DNA from: Ignavibacteriales bacterium
GTDB lineage: Bacteria > Bacteroidota > Ignavibacteria > UBA10030 > SZUA-254
Length of the DNA: 64,000 nucleotides
Assembly: GCA_016214905.1 (NCBI GenBank)
Contig: JACRMQ010000006.1
Coordinates: 1-64,000 of the forward strand
Direction: 5' to 3'
The position numbers and the translations under genes were made by a program. Position 1 is the stretch's first letter. Each line of letters opens with the position of its first letter. Shown here piece after piece: positions 18,664 through 47,979 of the stretch. The notes beneath the pieces are model-generated. The model searched no databases. It saw only the letters and a list, made by a program, of their open reading frames with translations, and was not told the DNA's origin.

Positions 18664-19005
18664 ATGTCTCAAATCCAACAAACAACCCCCATAAAAGCAA
18701 TCAGAGACAAATGCCTTGATTGCTCAGTATTCCAGCCAAAAGAGGTAAGGCTATGCCCGGTGACGAACTGTAGCCTTTATATCTACCGCCTCGGTAAAAA
18801 TCCTAAATACAAGATCCGCAAAACTCAAGATTTTTCGATTAAAATTCCAGGGGGTATATCAAACAACCCCCAGGGAAAGATAGCCCAAAAATCCTTAGAT
18901 AGCTGGCCTATTTCTACCAACAAATCGATTTTAAAAGCTCGCCGACACCATAAATCCCATAGATCAAACAGGGGATTCCGGCCGGAAGGAGGGTTGATGT
19001 CATGA
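18664..19005 (+). CDS. Cys-cluster phage/island protein
   Basis: This 113-residue protein has a strong ribosome site (AAAGGAGAAGAG) and the pattern IRDKCLDCS, VRLCPVTNCSLY, YRLGKNP near its N-terminus. The pattern is common in short phage and plasmid proteins and probably binds zinc through four cysteines. The C-terminal half is basic. The function of the family is unknown to me. Its stop overlaps the next gene by 4 bp, which starts the plus-strand replication module. Confidence 0.7.
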   Translation: MSQIQQTTPIKAIRDKCLDCSVFQPKEVRLCPVTNCSLYIYRLGKNPKYKIRKTQDFSIKIPGGISNNPQGKIAQKSLDSWPISTNKSILKARRHHKSHRSNRGFRPEGGLMS

Positions 19006-19472
19006 ATACGAAATTAAGCCCTTTTCTAACCCATGATCATGTCCTCACTGACGTGGCCAGATATTATTCAAATCTCGATAAGCAACCTTACGTTGTTATG
19101 GTCGGTGATTATCCAGGATATGACATCGCTTCTTTATCTGAAGATAAAAGACTGGAAGTGAAGGTCGAGACAACACCGATCCGAACTGGTAATGTGGCAA
19201 TCGAGTTCTGGAACTCATCGACAAATCGACCATCTGGTATCCTAGCAACAGAAGCCAATATCTGGCTCCATATAGTTATGGAAAAGGATGGTTTTATTGC
19301 TTATGAGTTTGATCTTCCAAGTTTGATAAAGCTGGTCATTGAAAGCGGAGAAATAAAAAAGGGTGGAACAAACGCCCTTTGTAAGATAATCCCGTTATCA
19401 ATATTTCGAAAATCAGCACTTCGGTATTTTGCTATCATCATCTCTCATCTTTCCGTATTTCAAAAGAATTGA
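19002..19472 (+). CDS. Putative small PD-(D/E)xK-like protein of phage module
   Basis: The 156-residue product contains GYDIASLSEDKRLEVKVET, with an Asp and an E-x-K spaced as in PD-(D/E)xK nucleases, and then ATEANIWLHIV. This suggests a small nuclease or nuclease-fold protein, but the match rests on the motif only. The start overlaps the preceding Cys-cluster gene (ATGA-type). The product could act in recombination or replication with its neighbours. Confidence 0.55.
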   Translation: MNTKLSPFLTHDHVLTDVARYYSNLDKQPYVVMVGDYPGYDIASLSEDKRLEVKVETTPIRTGNVAIEFWNSSTNRPSGILATEANIWLHIVMEKDGFIAYEFDLPSLIKLVIESGEIKKGGTNALCKIIPLSIFRKSALRYFAIIISHLSVFQKN

Positions 19473-19482
19473 TGGAGGATGT

Positions 19483-19722
19483 ATGATAATTACCGATCTA
19501 GTAGTAATCAGAACTTGGTGCCCTTTTTGCGGCACCAAGTTGGAATTCCGACAGCATAAAAATATGAAGCGAAAACGAAGATATTACTGCGATAATATGT
19601 GCAAGGAGGATCATCGCATTACGTTAGATCCAAGTCACCCCCAATATCGTGAAGTGGTTAATAGACAACTGAAATTAAAAGGTTACAAAAAAATAAGGAG
19701 TAGAAAAAATGAGTACAAGTAA
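19483..19722 (+). CDS. Zinc-ribbon-like small protein
   Basis: ATG 19483 is chosen because GGAGG lies 8 bp upstream; the longer frame from 19429 runs through the previous gene. The 79-residue basic protein carries two cysteine pairs, TWCPFCG and YYCDNMC, typical of a zinc ribbon, then a lysine-rich tail. Its 3' end overlaps the ATPase gene by 14 bp. It is probably a nucleic-acid-binding accessory of the replication module. Confidence 0.6.
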   Translation: MIITDLVVIRTWCPFCGTKLEFRQHKNMKRKRRYYCDNMCKEDHRITLDPSHPQYREVVNRQLKLKGYKKIRSRKNEYK

Positions 19723-20629
19723 TACACAAACGCCAAAAAGCATCGATATAAAATCGCTTGATACCATAATGAAGGATAATGATAAAGCTCCCAGCCCTAT
19801 TATCGATGACGGAATCCTCTTGGATAAAACATTATTGTTAGTATTTGGTCAACCAAAAGCTAAAAAAACATTTCTCTGTTTAAATATGGGATTGGCAATA
19901 GCTCAGGGTAAATCATTCGCTGGTTTTAAAATACCAGGAGCACAGAAGGTGTTATTTCTATCAGCTGAGGGTGGTTATTACCCTATCCGTGATAGGATAA
20001 AAACAATGGTTACTGATATAAAGGAAGAACATAGGAATAACTTCAAGATGTGCTTTAATGCAAGATTAAATCTGATGGTCGAAGAGGATCTGGATCTTAT
20101 TGTAGAACATATTGATGCATATAAGCCAAAAGTTCTTATCATTGACCCATTTGTTCGTTTCCATGATAATGATGAAAATTCAGCAAGTGAAATGTCGAAA
20201 GTCCTCGGCAACATCCGGCACCTAATCGAGCAGTATAATCTTTCGATTATACTGGTTCATCATGCCGGAAAAGATAATACAAGAGGATTAAGAGGTTCAT
20301 CTGCTATTGTCGGTGAATACGATTCGAGTATTCATATCGCTAATAGCGGTGAAACGAGCAGTCTGTCATTCGATATGCGACACGTGAAGACACCTGAAGA
20401 CCGGAAGATCATTTTCGATGATAAAACATTATGGTTCGATGTTTTTTTAAATGAAACTCCAGTCGTCAATGTTATCAAGGCAATCGGTTCGAGTGCCACC
20501 AAGAAGGAGATAGTGGATATATTAATGAATGAGCATTCATATTCAGACAGCGGCGCATATAAGGCAATTGACCGTGCAGTTGCGAAGAATCTGATTACTA
20601 CAAAGGACGGAACATATTCACTTCAGTAA
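19709..20629 (+). CDS. RepA/DnaB-like AAA ATPase
   Basis: This 306-residue RecA-fold ATPase has a variant Walker A GQPKAKKT (residues 47-54), VLFLSAEGG, Walker B VLIIDPFVRFHDND, and the sensor stretch IILVHHAGKDNTRGLRGSSAI. It matches the AAA_25 or RepA hexameric helicase group used by plasmids and phages, where it unwinds the origin. The last 60 residues look like a winged-helix domain (KKEIVDILMNEHSYSDSGAY). Five copies of a 10-bp motif start inside its stop codon region, which supports a replication role for the locus. Confidence 0.78.
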   Translation: MSTSNTQTPKSIDIKSLDTIMKDNDKAPSPIIDDGILLDKTLLLVFGQPKAKKTFLCLNMGLAIAQGKSFAGFKIPGAQKVLFLSAEGGYYPIRDRIKTMVTDIKEEHRNNFKMCFNARLNLMVEEDLDLIVEHIDAYKPKVLIIDPFVRFHDNDENSASEMSKVLGNIRHLIEQYNLSIILVHHAGKDNTRGLRGSSAIVGEYDSSIHIANSGETSSLSFDMRHVKTPEDRKIIFDDKTLWFDVFLNETPVVNVIKAIGSSATKKEIVDILMNEHSYSDSGAYKAIDRAVAKNLITTKDGTYSLQ

Positions 20630-20826
20630 ATTCTACTTTTATATTTTACAGTAGAATTTATGTTTTGAAATATGCTATAACCCCATGAGATATATTAAGT
20701 TATAGAAATTCTACTGAAAATGAGAGGGATATATGATAAAAGTGATAAAAATCCTTGAAAATATGCTGGAATAAATGAAATTCTACTTTCTACTGGTCCT
20801 TATATAGGGAGTATAAAGTAGAATTC
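20628..20826. repeat. Iteron-like AAATTCTACT repeats, candidate origin or operator
   Basis: Forward copies of AAATTCTACT lie at 20628-20637, 20706-20715 and 20778-20787. Inverse copies lie at 20650-20659 (AGTAGAATTT, perfect) and 20817-20826 (one mismatch). A shortened copy (TTTCTACT) lies at 20787-20794. The copies pair as dyads and sit in an AT-rich stretch directly behind the RepA-like ATPase gene. This layout fits replication iterons or an autoregulatory operator. No protein is encoded here. Confidence 0.65.
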
Positions 20827-20842
20827 TATACCACGGCAGATT

Positions 20843-20880
20843 AGGCTGCCCCCCTTTGTGGGGGGCAGCCTTTCTGCCTT
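20843..20880 (+). terminator. Strong hairpin terminator
   Basis: AGGCTGCCCCCC (20843-20854) pairs perfectly with GGGGGGCAGCCT (20860-20871) around a TTTGT loop and is followed by TTCTGCCTT. The 12-bp stem ends the plus-strand replication module. Confidence 0.75.
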
Positions 20881-21242
20881 CTAGTGGTGTAGCTATAGGA
20901 TCTACCGTTTCTTTTTCTTTCCCGTCACGCCCAACGCTTTGTGGTAGGAGCGCCAGCTCTGTAAGCGACGAAGAAATGGCAAAGTCGATGGGGTAGCTCT
21001 TAAAAATTATATGTCTTTTTTCCGTACTCTCTTGATATGAGCAGTGCCTTAGGGTTCCAGGGATATGCTGATTGCTGTCATGCTAACAGCCACACTTATA
21101 GATTATCGGGTTTCAGTCTGAGCTTATATATTCATTTATCTGTACACTGCTGTCATGGCGACTGTAATGCTTTATATATTCCAGGGTGACAATCAATAAT
21201 GGGATAATTACCTTGAGCGTTCAAGAGAAAGAGAAAAAAATA
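20881..21242. other. Non-coding spacer between convergent modules
   Basis: No gene is visible between the two terminators. The spacer holds two copies of TGCTGTCATG (21073-21082 and 21148-21157) and two copies of TTCCAGGG near 21055 and 21179. This may be a leftover duplicated segment or a second repeat array. I can assign no function. Confidence 0.4.
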
Positions 21243-21266
21243 ACCCAGCGCCGGTAGGCGCTGGGT
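21243..21266 (-). terminator. Terminator of minus-strand recombination operon
   Basis: ACCCAGCGCC (21243-21252) pairs with GGCGCTGGGT (21257-21266) around GGTA. On the minus strand the stem is followed by TTATTTTTTT, a proper T tract. It lies 28 bp past the stop of the last gene in the operon. Confidence 0.8.
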
Positions 21267-21293
21267 GTGGGGTGAAGTTTAGCTATTCTCGAG

Positions 21294-21854
21294 CTAGAAA
21301 GCCATTGATTCCATTTGCTCGGTCACGGGAGCTGGCATATCCAAAAGATCCGGGTGGTAATTTCTCGGATATCCTTTTGCCAGTGAACGCTTGAATCTGC
21401 TCAAGAGAAAGTCAGCACCTTCTTCAACGGAAGCAATCTGATTCCAATCCGTATACCGATACTTGCCGCCTTCTCTTACGCCTGAGATATAAGACAGCCG
21501 TAAGAATTTCTTGCCAGCGAGTGAATCGATGATATCTGTTGGTATATGGTTAGCTTCATCGAGAGTACCATTGTAACCGAATCTCGCTAAGGCTTCTTGA
21601 ACGAGGAATCCAGATCCCCATCCGACAACTTCTCCAGAATCAAAATCTCTTTTGAAGTTGCCAGCGATAATCATCTGCGGCTGGAACTCCTTACCGATAT
21701 CGAGTGTGAGTTTTATGCCAATATCGATTGGCTGTTCTGACAATGGAAGTTGCTCACCTGAAATGTCGCTGGCATTTACGATTGTTACTTCATTGATGTA
21801 AATTCCAGGACCATATGTTGTTTTGCTGAATGGCTTATTGCATGATAATGTCAT
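21294..21854 (-). CDS. Phage-type hypothetical, possible ssDNA-binding partner
   Basis: The 186-residue product has a beta-rich first half (GPGIYINEVTIVNASD, PIDIGIKLTLDIG, PQMIIAGNF) and a helical second half. I do not recognise the family with certainty. Phage Sak4-like recombinases often have a small single-strand-binding protein as the next gene, and this gene follows one, so that role is a guess from position and fold. It is the last gene of the minus-strand operon. Confidence 0.55.
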   Translation of the reverse strand: MTLSCNKPFSKTTYGPGIYINEVTIVNASDISGEQLPLSEQPIDIGIKLTLDIGKEFQPQMIIAGNFKRDFDSGEVVGWGSGFLVQEALARFGYNGTLDEANHIPTDIIDSLAGKKFLRLSYISGVREGGKYRYTDWNQIASVEEGADFLLSRFKRSLAKGYPRNYHPDLLDMPAPVTEQMESMAF

Positions 21855-21892
21855 GATGTTAATCCTTTATGATATTTTGATTGATTGGTTAA

Positions 21893-22624
21893 TTAAGACG
21901 CTCTCTTTAATGCTTGTTGAGTCAAAGACAGCTTAGTTATTATTTGAGATAATGTTTCTTCCCGTTGAATGGCAGGGGATAGATCGCCGGTGAAACCGTT
22001 CTTCGTTAGGTTAAGCTTACGGTCTTTATCCTGAGAATATTGAAGAACGATATCAGCTTTGTAAGGAAGAGTGCTATAAACACGTGGTACGATAGAGCCT
22101 GTTGGTTTATCACCCACGTACTCTTCTTTCACTCTGGTAGTTATAACAAGATTAAACTTCTTAGAAAATTTAATCTCATCAATTATTGCATTGCACATTC
22201 CCCAGACATCTGCCCAATTAAACGTTGGATATACCTTTTCCATTTTGGTTCTATCCAGATATTCAATCTCAGCAAATGTTTGAAGATCAGAACCGGAATC
22301 TATTACGATTGTTCCTTCCGGTTGATATTTTATAATGTGTTTAATTGCTACTACCATCTCAGAGAAATTCCTCACAAGAGCAACCTTGACGTTCCTGAAC
22401 TTACGAGTAACTATCTGTGCACGGTACTCAGTGTCGAGTAAATACACAGGAGCAAGCTCATTCATCGTGCAAGCAAGATGAGTTTTCCCTGAACCTTCTT
22501 TACCGGCAATTAGAACTACCAGTTTTGATGCATCTTCGGGATCAGAGAACTTGAAGGCGTCACGTTGAGTGATTAACTCTTGACGTTCCTTGTCATTTTT
22601 ATAGAATGGATTTGGTTTAGACAT
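21893..22624 (-). CDS. Sak4-like (AAA_24) phage recombination ATPase
   Basis: The 243-residue RecA-fold ATPase has Walker A GKEGSGKT at residues 41-48, VYLLDTEYRAQ, Walker B TIVIDSGSD and a Q-rich C-terminus. It matches the AAA_24/Sak4 group of phage single-strand annealing or RecA-like recombinases. The start has a fair ribosome site (AGAGGTATAAC). It lies between the DUF932 gene and a possible SSB-like gene on the same strand, a common phage arrangement. Confidence 0.8.
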   Translation of the reverse strand: MSKPNPFYKNDKERQELITQRDAFKFSDPEDASKLVVLIAGKEGSGKTHLACTMNELAPVYLLDTEYRAQIVTRKFRNVKVALVRNFSEMVVAIKHIIKYQPEGTIVIDSGSDLQTFAEIEYLDRTKMEKVYPTFNWADVWGMCNAIIDEIKFSKKFNLVITTRVKEEYVGDKPTGSIVPRVYSTLPYKADIVLQYSQDKDRKLNLTKNGFTGDLSPAIQREETLSQIITKLSLTQQALKRAS

Positions 22625-43350: not shown

Positions 43351-43404
43351 TTGACATTTGAATTCAGAAGTGTTATATTAAAACGTACAAAACGAATATA
43401 ACAC
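43351..43404 (+). promoter_or_regulatory. carH promoter with overlapping inverted-repeat operator
   Basis: TTGACA (43351-43356) and TATATT (43374-43379) are separated by exactly 17 bp. A perfect 10-bp dyad GTGTTATATT (43370-43379) and AATATAACAC (43395-43404) covers the -10 box and the start region, with 15 bp between. The spacer repeats AAAACG (43380-43385 and 43389-43394). The dyad ends 5 bp before the carH ATG, so autorepression by the encoded regulator is likely. Confidence 0.75.
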
Positions 43405-43409
43405 ATATA

Positions 43410-44345
43410 ATGAATATTACACCAAATACAGTTTTATCAACGCAGGAATTGGCAATCTTACTTAACGTCACTGAAACAACCGTAAAAAGGTGGGCGGATG
43501 TCGGACAGATCAAGTGTACCAAAACACTTGGTGGACACCGGAAATTTAATATTTCCGATGTAATAAGTTTTGCTGAAAAAAATGGATATACTCTTCTCGG
43601 GTTGCTTCCACCGCCGATGGATAATGAACAGATGGAGCAATTGCAGTTTGCAGTAATGACAAAAAATTATTCTAAAATATCTGAAGTATTTTTACAGGAA
43701 GCATTACAGGGTGATCGCGAAGGTTTAGTAACATTATTGTTGTATCTAATCAGACACCAGATAGGATTTCCAACAATAACCGATGAAATTATTCGCTCGG
43801 CACTTGTTAAGATCGGAGATATGTGGGAAAAGGGAGATATCGATATCAATCAGGAACATAGAGCATCACATGCAGTTTCTGAAGCGATGATCAGAATTTT
43901 ACCAAGTTTGTATAGAAAACCTTCGAACGGGTTATCAATTCTTTGCGCATGTCCGGAAGGTGAATATCATGAAATCGGTTTAAAAGGTCTTGCGTATTCT
44001 TTTGAAACCGAAGGATGGAAGGTGCATTACATCGGTGCGAATACTCCGTCGAGCAGTTTAATATCGTTTATAAAGAGATATAAACCTGAACTGGTTGCGT
44101 TATCGTTTACGATTGTTAAGGATAAAAAGAAATTGTTCGGCGAATTTGGAATTATCTCAAAACATATTCACTCGTACGGGGGAAAATTTATTGCAGGAGG
44201 ATTTTATTCGGGAAATTATACCGAAAAAGAAATCCATTGTGATCAAATAATTTTATCTTCAACAGAAGCAATTGCTTATGCAAGGGATGTATTTAATTTA
44301 CAACCTGGACCAAAGAAGGGCGCGAAAAGTAGTAAAAATAATTAA
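43410..44345 (+). CDS. CarH/LitR-type B12-dependent light-responsive regulator
   Basis: The 311-residue protein joins an N-terminal MerR-type winged helix (LSTQELAILLNVTETTVKRW, GGHRKFNISDV) to a B12-binding region. Trp139 followed by Glu149-His150 is the W-x9-EH motif of photosensing B12 domains, and GEYHEIGL provides His187, the usual lower cobalt ligand. In characterised homologues adenosylcobalamin holds a DNA-bound tetramer in the dark and light breaks it, releasing repression. A photolyase gene 0.9 kb downstream supports this role. Confidence 0.9.
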   Translation: MNITPNTVLSTQELAILLNVTETTVKRWADVGQIKCTKTLGGHRKFNISDVISFAEKNGYTLLGLLPPPMDNEQMEQLQFAVMTKNYSKISEVFLQEALQGDREGLVTLLLYLIRHQIGFPTITDEIIRSALVKIGDMWEKGDIDINQEHRASHAVSEAMIRILPSLYRKPSNGLSILCACPEGEYHEIGLKGLAYSFETEGWKVHYIGANTPSSSLISFIKRYKPELVALSFTIVKDKKKLFGEFGIISKHIHSYGGKFIAGGFYSGNYTEKEIHCDQIILSSTEAIAYARDVFNLQPGPKKGAKSSKNN

Positions 44346-44386: not shown

Positions 44387-44605
44387 ATGAAAACAACAGA
44401 TATTATAGCCTCGGTATTATTAATAGTGGGCGGACTTAACTGGGGAATGGTGGGCCTGTTAAATTTTAATATTGTCACCGCAATTTTCGGTTCGGTGAGC
44501 ATAATGAGCACAATAGTATATTTACTTGTTGCAATTTCCGCCATCTATCTGGCGATGGTGCTTGGTTCGCTGCAACGCCGACCACAAACAGCAAATATTA
44601 AATAA
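44387..44605 (+). CDS. DUF378 two-helix membrane protein
   Basis: The 72-residue protein shows the DUF378 pattern (IASVLLIVGGLNWGMVGL, two membrane segments, then a basic end QRRPQ). An AAGGAAAAT ribosome site precedes it. Function is unknown. It lies 41 bp after carH and is probably in its transcript. Confidence 0.8.
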   Translation: MKTTDIIASVLLIVGGLNWGMVGLLNFNIVTAIFGSVSIMSTIVYLLVAISAIYLAMVLGSLQRRPQTANIK

Positions 44606-44644: not shown

Positions 44645-45154
44645 ATGAAAAAATCATTAATAATCTTTGCATTAGCATTAACAACAATATCATCATCACT
44701 GTATGCGGCAGATCCAAAGCCAGGTCAATTCGGGCTCGGTTGGTACTCAGCCTCTGCTCCAATAGGCGGCAGAGTATGGGTTAACGAAATGGTTGGCGTA
44801 GATATCGGTCTCGGTTTTGCAGACAAAAATGCACTTCAAAGTGATAAGTCGAGATTTCATATCAACGTCGGCGTCCCGGTGAATGTTGTAAGAACCGAGA
44901 AAGTGAATTTCTTCATCCGTCCCGGTATTGAATTTCAAACCAATTCACGTATGGTTGGTAACGAAGTAAAGGGAACAACTATCATAAGTGCCGACTTAGG
45001 TGCCGAGTGGTTTGTTACCGATCAATTTTCTCTGAGCGTTGGTCATGGCTTACAATTGGAGCAAGTGACCGTAGCTAGGGAAGATAAATGGGGTATAACC
45101 GGTCTCAGGGCACTTGGATTCAATAATCTCGGTTTCCACTTTTACTTTAATTAA
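44645..45154 (+). CDS. Small outer-membrane beta-barrel protein
   Basis: A signal peptide (SLIIFALALTTISSSLYA) leads a 169-residue protein whose alternating hydrophobic strands and terminal aromatic FHFYFN suggest an outer-membrane barrel of OmpW/OmpA-like size. A GNDA-like or specific family is not identified. A terminator lies 21 bp after the stop, ending the carH-DUF378-barrel transcript. Confidence 0.65.
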   Translation: MKKSLIIFALALTTISSSLYAADPKPGQFGLGWYSASAPIGGRVWVNEMVGVDIGLGFADKNALQSDKSRFHINVGVPVNVVRTEKVNFFIRPGIEFQTNSRMVGNEVKGTTIISADLGAEWFVTDQFSLSVGHGLQLEQVTVAREDKWGITGLRALGFNNLGFHFYFN

Positions 45155-45174: not shown

Positions 45175-45221
45175 TATCAGCCCCCGATATTCATAATTGA
45201 GAGCGGGGGCTGATACTTTTA
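45175..45221 (+). terminator. Strong terminator of the carH transcript
   Basis: TATCAGCCCCCG (45175-45186) pairs perfectly over 12 bp with CGGGGGCTGATA (45204-45215), followed by CTTTTAAT. It separates the carH unit from the photolyase gene. Confidence 0.8.
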
Positions 45222-45243: not shown

Positions 45244-46596
45244 ATGACAGATCCTAGGCGGATAAAAATACTCAATGACCGTCAATATCTATCCGGTTCA
45301 GTGGTCTATTGGATCAGCCGTGATCAGAGGGTTGGTGATAACTGGGCAATTACTTTTGCTCAAGAATTGGCGTTGCAACATCTTGTACCTCTAATTGTCG
45401 TTTTCAACCTCCTCCCGGAATTTCTCGGTGCAACGATACGGCAATATGATTTTATGCTTCGTGGGTTTCAAGAATTGGAAAACAAATTACGGAAATATGA
45501 GATACCTTTTAATCTTCTTATCGGGTCTCCCGATAAAACTATTCCGAAATTTATTTCCCGACATAAAGTTGGTATATTAGTAACCGATTTTTCTCCATTA
45601 CGCATTTCTCGTGTTTGGAAAGAACAAGTTGCCAATTCTGTCTCCATCCCTTTTTATGAAGTTGACACACATAATATTGTGCCATGCTGGAATGCGTCGC
45701 CTAAGATGGAATATGGTGCGTATACTTTTCGTCCCAAAATCCAGAGATTGCTTCCCGAATTCTTAGATCAATTTCCATCGTTAAAAAAACATCCTTTTTC
45801 ATTAAAGGATGTCTTCCACCTGACAGATTGGAATAAAGCATACCAATCATTGCACGTGGATAAATCTGTATCGATTATCGATTGGTTGATCCCCGGTGAG
45901 AAAGCAGCCCTAAAAATTCTGGAACGATTTATTGAAAAAAGATTCAAGCATTATGAGGCAGGAAGGAACGATCCAAATGCTGATGTTCAATCTGATCTTT
46001 CCCCATACCTTCATTTCGGACAAATAGCTGCTCAGCGTGTTGCATATGAGATAAACCGGTTTGGTCACCCGCTGAAATCTGTTGAGGCGTTTCTTGAAGA
46101 ACTAATCGTGCGCAAAGAACTCTCAGATAATTTTTGCTTTTACAATCCTAATTATGATTCAATGAAGGGATTCCCGGAATGGAGTAGAAAATCTTTGCAG
46201 CAGCATGAAAAAGATACAAGGAACATAATTTATACTAAACAGCAATTTGAACGGGGTGGCACTCATGATGCATTATGGAATGCAGCACAAATGGAACTAG
46301 TTCAGATCGGTAAGATGCACGGATATATGCGGATGTATTGGGCAAAGAAAATTCTTGAGTGGAGCAAGACACCGGCCGATGCATTTGCCACAGCGGTTTA
46401 CCTGAACGATAAATATGAACTTGATGGAAGAGATCCTAACGGCTATGCTGGTATCGCATGGAGTATAGGCGGAACGCATGACAGAGCATGGGGTGAGCGG
46501 AAAATATTTGGGAAAGTACGTTATATGAATCAATCAGGATGTAAGCGAAAATTTGATACAGATCTTTATATAAAGAAGAATAAAAATAGTAAATGA
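45244..46596 (+). CDS. Class II CPD photolyase
   Basis: The 450-residue protein has the photolyase N-terminal domain (SGSVVYWISRDQRVGDNWA) and the FAD-binding C-terminal domain with VRKELSDNFCFYNPNYD, GKMHGYMRMYWAKKI and the class II block DGRDPNGYAGIAWSIGG ... VRYMNQSGCKRKFD. It repairs cyclobutane pyrimidine dimers using light. The next gene overlaps its stop by 4 bp. It follows carH as in known light-response loci. Confidence 0.93.
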   Translation: MTDPRRIKILNDRQYLSGSVVYWISRDQRVGDNWAITFAQELALQHLVPLIVVFNLLPEFLGATIRQYDFMLRGFQELENKLRKYEIPFNLLIGSPDKTIPKFISRHKVGILVTDFSPLRISRVWKEQVANSVSIPFYEVDTHNIVPCWNASPKMEYGAYTFRPKIQRLLPEFLDQFPSLKKHPFSLKDVFHLTDWNKAYQSLHVDKSVSIIDWLIPGEKAALKILERFIEKRFKHYEAGRNDPNADVQSDLSPYLHFGQIAAQRVAYEINRFGHPLKSVEAFLEELIVRKELSDNFCFYNPNYDSMKGFPEWSRKSLQQHEKDTRNIIYTKQQFERGGTHDALWNAAQMELVQIGKMHGYMRMYWAKKILEWSKTPADAFATAVYLNDKYELDGRDPNGYAGIAWSIGGTHDRAWGERKIFGKVRYMNQSGCKRKFDTDLYIKKNKNSK

Positions 46597-47054
46597 AAAT
46601 ATTTACTTTGAAATACGAACAGTATATCTCTCGGCCGCGAAACGAAATTTTCACATTTTTCTCGAGGCCAGAAAATCTCGCGCATATCACTCCTACAGCG
46701 CTAGGATTTATAATCCTTACGCCTTCACCAATCGAAATGCGGCCCGGTGTACTTATAAGCTATATGATCCGTATCTTTGGTATTCGTGTACGTTGGATTT
46801 CCATTATCACCAGTTACGACCCGCCAATGCGGTTTGTCGATGAACAATTACGCGGTCCATATTCATTCTGGCATCATACCCATACGTTTAAAGAACATCA
46901 GGGAGGTACGCTCATAACCGATGAAGTCAAATATGCTGTTCCTTTTGGAATTCTTGGAAGAGTTGTGCGCAGGATAATTATTCGTAGACAACTCGATAAA
47001 ATATTTTCATACCGCGCAGAAGTTATCCGTGAAATATTTTCCGATAATAAATAA
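46593..47054 (+). CDS. SRPBCC/START-like ligand-binding protein
   Basis: The 153-residue protein has the SRPBCC start pattern (EQYISRPRNEIFTFFSRPENLAHITP) and FVDEQLRGPYSFWHHTH, typical of the CoxG/SRPBCC or cyclase group. These proteins bind hydrophobic ligands. It is sandwiched between a photolyase and a TIGR01777 epimerase, a combination seen in photolyase clusters. Substrate unknown. Confidence 0.8.
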   Translation: MKIFTLKYEQYISRPRNEIFTFFSRPENLAHITPTALGFIILTPSPIEMRPGVLISYMIRIFGIRVRWISIITSYDPPMRFVDEQLRGPYSFWHHTHTFKEHQGGTLITDEVKYAVPFGILGRVVRRIIIRRQLDKIFSYRAEVIREIFSDNK

Positions 47055-47064
47055 GGATGAAAAA

Positions 47065-47979
47065 ATGAAAGTTATTATTGCAGGTGGTAGCGGTTTTATA
47101 GGTTCCGAATTAATCCGAAAGTTGCTCGCTTCGAATCATCAGGTGGTATTACTTTCCCGAAAACCTGTTGGGTTTAAGTCGGGATATAATGAATCGTTAC
47201 AAATTGTAAATTGGAATGGTAAACATGCCGGATCATGGATAAAATATATAGATGGCTCTGATGCAGTGATAAACTTATCAGGAGAAAATGTTGCTTCTAA
47301 ACGTTGGAGTAACACACAAAAAGAAAATTTGATAAATAGCAGGATTGAACCGACGATGGCAATAGCAGATGCAATATCCAAAGCGGTCAATAAACCAAAA
47401 GTTTTTATTAATGCTTCTGCTGCGGGATTTTATGGTAATTTTGGTGACGGAGATGTTTTTGAATCGGAGACAAAAGGTGAGGGGTTCCTTGCTGATTTGT
47501 GCGAAGAATGGGAGCGAAATGCAATGGTTACTGAAAAATATGGCGTACGAGTGGTTCTATTAAGAATTGGGGTTGTGCTATCACCTTCCGGTGGTGCATT
47601 AAAAAAAATGTTGACGCCGTTCAAGTATTTTATCGGTGGACCTCTTGGTTCCGGAAAACAATGGTTCCCGTGGATTCATTTAGAAGATGTAATTAGAATT
47701 ATTCAATTTGCAATAGAAAATAATGGAATAAAAGGTGCCTTAAACATTACTTCTCCCAATCCTGTAACTATGAGTGAATTTGCCTATTCACTTGGAAAGG
47801 TTTTGAAAAGACCGTCATTATTTCCTGTGCCTTCAATTATTCTAAAATTACTCTTGGGTGAAATGTCGGAAATTGTATTGGGAGGAAGAAAAATCATTCC
47901 AAAAAAATTAATCGATGCCGGATTCAAATTCAAATTTATTGATATCAATGATACACTTATAGCTCTTATGAAAAGGTAA
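47065..47979 (+). CDS. TIGR01777-type NAD-dependent epimerase/SDR
   Basis: ATG 47065 is preferred: AAGGATG lies upstream, and the frame from 47029 runs through the previous gene. The 304-residue Rossmann protein begins IIAGGSGFIGSELIRKLL, has AGFYGNFGD in place of the YxxxK core and GPLGSGKQWFPWIHLEDV, typical of TIGR01777. The reaction is not known. It follows SRPBCC as in other photolyase-linked clusters. Confidence 0.85.
   Translation: MKVIIAGGSGFIGSELIRKLLASNHQVVLLSRKPVGFKSGYNESLQIVNWNGKHAGSWIKYIDGSDAVINLSGENVASKRWSNTQKENLINSRIEPTMAIADAISKAVNKPKVFINASAAGFYGNFGDGDVFESETKGEGFLADLCEEWERNAMVTEKYGVRVVLLRIGVVLSPSGGALKKMLTPFKYFIGGPLGSGKQWFPWIHLEDVIRIIQFAIENNGIKGALNITSPNPVTMSEFAYSLGKVLKRPSLFPVPSIILKLLLGEMSEIVLGGRKIIPKKLIDAGFKFKFIDINDTLIALMKR

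Follow-up and report, generated by a model that had tools for sequence, protein, structure and literature searches.

The segment 43381–43407 (+ strand) of the window, i.e., of the whole analysed stretch of 64,000 nucleotides, is very probably the operator of the adjacent regulator gene, and the AAAACG elements found there are very probably its recognition units, as judged from sequence comparison among relatives. The gene (43410–44345, + strand) encodes a CarH-like B12 photoreceptor/repressor of 311 aa, assigned by Pfam and by structure-database homology. It is likely, in our estimate, that the segment functions as an autoregulatory, light-relieved operator made of 9-bp repeats and belonging to a B12 photoreceptor with a BldC-type DNA-binding domain.

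Promoter and Direct Repeats Upstream of the Regulator Gene

The promoter elements were read directly in the window sequence. The -35 hexamer TTGACA (43351–43356, + strand) is separated by a 17-bp spacer from the -10 hexamer TATATT (43374–43379, + strand), which has TG in front, and the promoter scan gave 11 of 12 consensus matches for this TTGACA-N17-TATATT arrangement. The ATG of the regulator gene is at 43410. The earlier note had described this promoter together with a perfect 10-bp inverted repeat that lies over the -10 box and reaches up to 5 bp before the ATG, and each of these elements was found in its place. The dyad (43370–43404) has the arms GTGTTATATT (43370–43379) and AATATAACAC (43395–43404), and its loop, AAAACGTACAAAACG (43380–43394), holds copies of AAAACG at 43380–43385 and 43389–43394, 9 bp apart.

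Adjoining the -10 box, the tandem unit AAACGnnCA runs through 43381–43407 as direct repeat 1 (AAACGTACA, 43381–43389), direct repeat 2 (AAACGAATA, 43390–43398) and a degenerate direct repeat 3 (TAACACATA, 43399–43407), all on the + strand. The first two were established by the matrix, the pair distances and the site layouts described below, and the third, which is weak in the window itself, by the matrix and the layouts. The consensus of the unit among relatives is WAWCGnnYA. The pair AWCGnnYAWAWCGnnYA occurs once in the window, at this site (shuffles gave a mean of 0.07, and 7 of 100 held at least one), and the window promoter contains one CGnnYA pair at 9 bp.

The operators of CarH are tandem 11-bp repeats, nnnnTnnACAn, according to the accessible text of PMC9304148 and PMC8156234. 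That the window site is a canonical CarH operator with 11-bp TnnACA repeats is very improbable. The -35 TTGACA does fit one TnnACA unit, but the two TnnACA sites of the window promoter are 43 bp apart, and no 11-bp TnnACA pair was found in the whole window on either strand, where 3.4 were expected. The carH promoter of T. thermophilus HB8 (L203), taken as a positive control, contains three TnnACA units spaced 11 bp apart and lacks a 9-bp CGnnYA pair.

The Inverted Repeat over the -10 Box

The dyad itself, which the earlier note had presented as part of the operator, was not supported as the recognition element. A search of the genome for the motif had also been suggested there, and the exact dyad (spacer 10–20) was found once in the 3.3-Mb genome. 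When the 128-bp intergenic stretch (21% GC) was shuffled 3000 times with dinucleotides preserved, 119 of the shuffles held at least one perfect 10-bp inverted repeat, and the window has 11 distinct centres with perfect arms of at least 10 bp and a loop of up to 30, against a mean of 2.4 (0–5) in 30 shuffled windows; thus, the dyad is real but only marginally above local chance. Six of these 11 perfect inverted repeats are at 19512–21266. The stretch 18664–22624 carries phage- or plasmid-like genes, as assigned by eye, along with several short inverted repeats, and is perhaps an integrated element.

At the window register, the arms pair at 10/10 in the window and at 9/10 in L003, the locus of the nearest homologue (56–57% protein identity), which shows one covarying pair (GTG/CAC to GCG/CGC). 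Pairing in the remaining 16 of the 18 sites compared, including L026 from the window's own family, was 1–6/10; arms swapped between loci paired at a mean of 3.8/10, and sliding the arms by up to 3 bp gave 7 as the best value among those 16 sites (L005). The dyad was absent by eye in the other sites of the family, L117 and L118.

A palindromic MerR-type operator over the -10 box would account for a dyad that is perfect, unique in the genome and nearly matched, with covariation, in L003, but we consider this improbable in view of its absence from so many sites and its appearance among the local shuffles. In addition, MerR-activated promoters have long spacers, whereas the spacer here is of normal length, and the relative BldC binds direct repeats with this type of domain. 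The dyad is probably an incidental overlap of the -10 region with repeats 2–3. Because of the covarying pair in the L003 match, a role within this one family is possible. A divergent minus-strand promoter using the TATATT of the dyad was rejected, as the promoter scan lists no such minus-strand site.

Conservation of the 9-bp Repeats in Relatives

Homologues were taken from 60 relatives of the same order, and 30 loci, including the window's own, were analysed, with minus-strand loci turned to gene orientation; five of the loci (L027–L031) are without B12 residues. Within the order, the regions 5' of the homologues share the repeats of the spacer, not the arms of the dyad. This comparison supports two further proposals of the earlier note, namely that the site is an operator of the adjacent B12 regulator and that AAAACG in the spacer serves as its recognition unit. 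Under leave-one-out, the score of a 27-position matrix of three 9-mers exceeded the 99th shuffle percentile at 26 of the 30 loci, and at 23 it was higher than in any of 600 shuffles, although the test is not fully blind, since the matrix was seeded by hand and the sites were placed with all loci, themselves related, beforehand. A recognisable repeat site before the gene was not found in four of the 30 loci of the order (L008, L010, L012 and L013).

Layouts were kept for 24 of the 30 loci; L008–L013 were dropped, although L009 and L011 pass the matrix bar. From these 24, 19 carH sites were laid out for promoter geometry, L023 and L027–L030 being left out. All 19 carH sites have the C and G of repeat 1 and also the C of repeat 2; 17 have the G of repeat 2, and 17 have C at position 4 of repeat 3.

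As a matrix-free check, the distances between CGnnYA pairs were counted in 67 upstream regions (37 from the order and 30 from elsewhere in the phylum). At 9 bp, 28 pairs were found in 19 of the 67 regions (200 shuffles: mean 0.59, maximum 3), and a further 10 pairs at 18 bp; the CarH spacing of 11 bp gave 0 pairs in the 67 regions. The single other distance above its shuffle maximum was 25 bp (4 pairs versus 3). The coding-side 220-nt stretches of the same loci held 1 pair at 9 bp. Regions with the 9-bp pair amount to 16/37 inside the order and 3/30 outside it (L044, L046 and L063), so that outside the order this operator, at least in front of this gene, is exceptional.

A -10 box with at least 5/6 matches was found in 16 of the 19 carH sites, in a search span reaching only from 4 nt ahead of the repeat to 1 nt inside it, and all 16 boxes end 0–2 nt before repeat 1. 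A -35 box with at least 5/6 matches, 16–18 bp from the -10, was present in 9/19. From this geometry, the repeat block would cover the melted region and the predicted start site, which is the position of a repressor. Most of the block would also be transcribed, as expected if the repeats acted in the 5' leader RNA and not as DNA, but this reading is extremely improbable, given that repeat 1 begins before the predicted start and that no consensus RNA pairing was found in the repeat block of 18 aligned sites.

The loci L027–L031, in spite of lacking the B12 residues, still have 9-bp repeats, with the variant AAAAGnnYA AAACGCTYA, or near it, in L027–L030. It follows that the repeats go with the DNA-binding domain and are no proof of light control. 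The L027–L031 paralogues have a BldC-type domain, have lost the EH and HxxG B12 residues and possibly form a B12-independent branch. A parallel for such a branch is CarA beside CarH.

Domain Organization of the Regulator

The predicted protein has a BldC-like winged-HTH DNA-binding domain at residues ~7–58 (43428–43583, + strand; domain search and fold) and a B12-binding helical bundle with a Rossmann domain at residues ~94–311 (43689–44342, + strand; GxxW, EH, GxxH and GxxxP). Its Pfam domains are HTH_17, B12-binding_2 and B12-binding. Over the full length, the nearest solved relative is CtMerR (8JBS, E 3.1e-41), followed by CarH (5C8D, 2.7e-12). The AdoCbl signature is complete (G136/W139, E149/H150, G184/H187, G209/P213), and all its residues but G184 are invariant among 17 homologues; the four-part signature GxxW, EH, GxxH, GxxxP is given for light-responsive domains in the accessible text of PMC11796333. 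The signature Trp is followed by Glu (E140) at the place of His132 in TtCarH. CtMerR shares the signature and likewise lacks the His132 ligand, having Arg at that position (PMC11796333, accessible text). Because of E140 in the window protein and Arg in CtMerR, a bis-His light state is not expected.

The DNA-binding domain alone matched CtMerR (5.4e-9), BldC (6AMA, 2.9e-6) and a further BldC (7.4e-6), and CarH 5C8D was absent from its matches at E≤1; WD-repeat matches of this domain were taken as spurious. The single-sequence structure prediction of the domain had a pLDDT of 85.6. Foldseek with the predicted domain placed BldC first (4.9e-4) and CarH at rank 13 (2.3e-2), and VIA-align gave Z 9.1 and an rmsd of 1.3 over 51 residues for BldC versus Z 6.1 and an rmsd of 2.5 for CarH, with a phage excisionase tying with BldC in this fold comparison. 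In an ungapped alignment, R27, H43 and G41 of the window protein correspond to R30, H46 and G44 of BldC and are invariant in 17/17 aligned homologues; the BldC variants R30A, H46A and G44E showed no saturable binding (PMC5859096, accessible text). The BldC residues R30, W31, T42, L43, G44, H46 and R47 have an identical residue in the window protein, whereas K26, T29, R22, K33 and I40 differ.

The NCBIfam CarH equivalog model scored 58.9 bits, below its cut-off of 400, and the NCBIfam BldC model 45.5 bits, below its cut-off of 77; all 17 homologues match the BldC model at E≤1e-3. Pfam MerR, with 27.1 bits, was just below the cut-off of 28.2, and the wider MerR-like fold is shared. These matches and the structural model place the DNA-binding domain as BldC-like, joined to a CarH-like B12 domain. 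The name "carH-type", which the earlier note had used for the gene, therefore suits the sensor half, while the DNA-binding domain is nearer to BldC and the 11-bp TnnACA repeats are absent.

Other homologues were set aside. Seven relatives among further genome contigs were distant, with other DNA-binding domains in L032–L036 and none in L037–L038. Viral-contig matches (59 loci) had mostly the DNA-binding domain alone, and homologues on Rhizobium and Azospirillum plasmids did not fit the domain pattern.

Genes Downstream of the Regulator

Two genes probably belong to the same transcript as the regulator, namely those for a DUF378 small membrane protein (44387–44605, + strand; Pfam) and for an outer-membrane-barrel-like protein (44645–45154, + strand; below the Pfam cut-off). 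By eye, DUF378-like ORFs were also seen near the site in L134 and L117, and outer-membrane-barrel look-alikes 3' of the regulator gene in L132 and L133. The outer-membrane-like gene and the photolyase gene are separated by a strong hairpin with no clear U-run (45175–45215, + strand; 89 nt folded, z -6.1), which could attenuate read-through into the photolyase gene. The latter encodes a DNA photolyase of the phr2 type (45244–46596, + strand; TIGR00591, 649 bits), and its place in the regulator transcript is uncertain because it lies beyond this hairpin. It is followed by genes for an SRPBCC (polyketide cyclase-like) protein (46593–47054, + strand; Pfam), a homologue of which (50% identity) is located 3' of the operator in L206, and for a TIGR01777 (YfcH-like) oxidoreductase (47065–47979, + strand; family match).

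Fasciclin-domain genes were observed elsewhere, near the regulator homologue in G048 (L134, 139–2036, - strand), with a DUF4397 gene, and near a distant homologue on a Rhizobium plasmid (L204, 268–1266).

Further Sites and Candidate Regulon

A plain search of the genome with an AAWCGnnCA pair, allowing 2 mismatches, yielded 117 matches versus 93 for the reversed pattern and was uninformative, so a sequence-only position model, R1 (18 sites, 37 columns), was used. In the window's own genome, R1 found one site of 27 bits (E 1.2e-5), at this gene, with the next at 12.5 bits; a second clear R1 site before the photolyase gene was not found in this genome. Of the 60 relatives, 31 have the gene, and 16 of these carry an R1 site at E≤1e-3; of the 29 that lack the gene, 0 do (Fisher 2.5e-6; hand count, having the gene meaning a match starting by residue 10 at E≤1e-15). 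These figures are not independent, as all 16 genomes contributed training sites. Sites at the gene's own promoter were found in six families (f1, f2, f4, f5, f6 and f29).

It is conceivable that the 9-bp repeats are bound by some other BldC/MerR-like regulator and not by the window protein, and the B12-blind paralogues of L027–L030, with the same domain type and similar repeats, would fit this. However, we regard it as unlikely, since the sites accompany the gene among the relatives (within training genomes), occupy its own promoter in six families and include a single clear site in the window's genome. The product of the adjacent gene is thus preferred as the protein that would bind the repeats.

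At E≤1e-3, the 60 relatives have six sites that are outside the training sites of the model and away from them. G007 has two of these, one before a photolyase gene followed by a DUF378-like ORF and another before an ORF truncated by the contig end; in G048 the site precedes a gene for a CrtI-like amine oxidase and then a second copy of the regulator gene, and in G054, G042 and G059 it precedes an ECF sigma gene. Weaker sites (E 0.004–0.03) are located before ECF genes in G039, G053, G023, G028 and probably G032. Two of these genomes, G023 and G028 (E 0.012 and 0.028, respectively), have no recognisable site at the regulator gene. A weak site in G004 (E 0.0036) precedes another gene of the same domain type (L059), and those in G014, G050 and G041 have no recognised neighbour; G026, G030, G034 and G046 are left out of this survey of weak matches. 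Pfam confirmed the photolyase, oxidoreductase and ECF genes of L120, L122, L125 and L127, and the ECF assignment of L121, L126, L128 and L129 is by resemblance.

In families f4 and f5, a site before an ECF sigma gene was seen at L120, L121, L122, L125, L126, L127 and L129, which suggests a light cascade through a sigma factor. In family f1 (G000–G014), the regulator is present in only 3 of 15 genomes (G000, G004 and G007) and is missing from G001 of the same genus; perhaps it was transferred or lost.

A search of 98 genomes of the order at E≤0.002 revealed 11 sites in non-training genomes. Four are before the regulator gene itself (L207, L208, L210 and L213), three before an ECF sigma gene (L211, L212 and L214) and one before an SRPBCC gene (L206). 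For the sites of L209, G014 and G050, comparison with 15 reference proteins revealed no neighbour fitting as a downstream target. A phylum-wide search of 296 genomes gave six sites at E≤1e-3, all upstream of this gene and all in training genomes. Another 14 hits fell at 1e-3 to 1e-2, with ~3 expected by chance; those in G075, G129, G031 and G004 are at this gene or a second copy, the other ten being left out of the placement.

Proposed Mechanism and Comparison with Known Systems

The following scheme is proposed for the regulation of this gene. The operator would consist of 9-bp direct repeats, WAWCGnnYA, that begin immediately after the -10 box and span the predicted start site. In the dark, a B12-bound oligomer would line up its DNA-binding domains along the repeats, head to tail, and block promoter opening. 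In the light, the Co–C bond would be broken and the oligomer would fall apart, after which the regulator gene and its downstream neighbours, perhaps including the photolyase gene, would be transcribed. By analogy, we infer that the window protein binds, represses, depends on B12 and responds to light.

CtMerR from Chloracidobacterium thermophilum (8JBS/8JBT) is the nearest solved relative both over the whole length and for the DNA-binding domain. It is reported to be a tetramer in the dark and a monomer in the light, and its DNA site is referred to as an "alternative DNA-binding site", with no operator given in the accessible text of PMC11796333. The 9-bp site described here is proposed for relatives of the CtMerR type.

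On CAATTCGGACAATTCGGACA, BldC protomers occupy 9-bp direct repeats in a head-to-tail arrangement, according to the accessible text of PMC5859096. In the BldC register, the repeat unit of the window is AAAACGTAC (43380–43388), and its comparison with the BldC site AATTCGGAC shows that A-A at positions 1–2, C-G at 5–6 and C at 9 coincide. BldC of Streptomyces (6AMA, 6AMK) is a developmental regulator of 68 residues without a sensor domain, in contrast to the 311 aa with B12 domains found here.

The CarH/LitR systems described for Thermus thermophilus, Bacillus megaterium and Myxococcales resemble the window system in the B12-binding domains, in the overlap with a sigma70 promoter and in the photolyase and carotenoid genes nearby; the carH of T. 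thermophilus adjoins phytoene synthase and phr. They differ in having a MerR-type domain and 11-bp TnnACA repeats, as far as the accessible sources describe them, instead of a BldC-like domain and 9-bp WAWCGnnYA. The domains of the CarH tetramer reach 11-bp repeats, and a 9-bp spacing does not obviously fit that tetramer. By its operator and DNA-binding domain the system is not a member of the CarH system, and it is most aptly seen as a CarH variant. The class II LitR proteins PmlR2/PplR1 of Pseudomonas are also LitR-type repressors of light-inducible genes, but their site is TGTACA-N12-TGTACA and they have no complete B12 domain, according to the accessible text of PMC9758184. In open-access literature searches, no paper combining CarH with 9-bp direct repeats was found, a paper mentioning BldC and cobalamin was, judging by its abstract, on another topic, and a term search in the accessible text of a Streptomyces LitR paper found no operator.

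We lean slightly towards a broader view, in which these proteins would form a second class of B12 photoreceptors, with a CarH sensor and a BldC-type domain that assembles head to tail along 9-bp repeats of varying number. Light would then control a protein–DNA filament, the regulon would include the regulator's own gene, photolyase, carotenoid and ECF sigma genes, and the B12-blind branch would have kept the operator and lost the cofactor.

B12 photoreceptors find use as green-light switches, with the 11-bp CarH repeat as their known DNA rule. The new element here is a concrete, still predicted DNA code, WAWCGnnYA repeats that follow the -10 box and precede the start codon, for the CtMerR-like branch, whose known member with a different DNA-binding domain has no operator assigned in the accessible text of PMC11796333. 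The window protein would be an example of a sensor domain refitted with another DNA-binding mode. With the 9-bp code, light regulons may be predicted from sequence, and the different operator could help to build light switches without CarH cross-talk. The repeats and their conservation suggest that the CtMerR-like branch of B12 light sensors grips DNA differently from the known ones.
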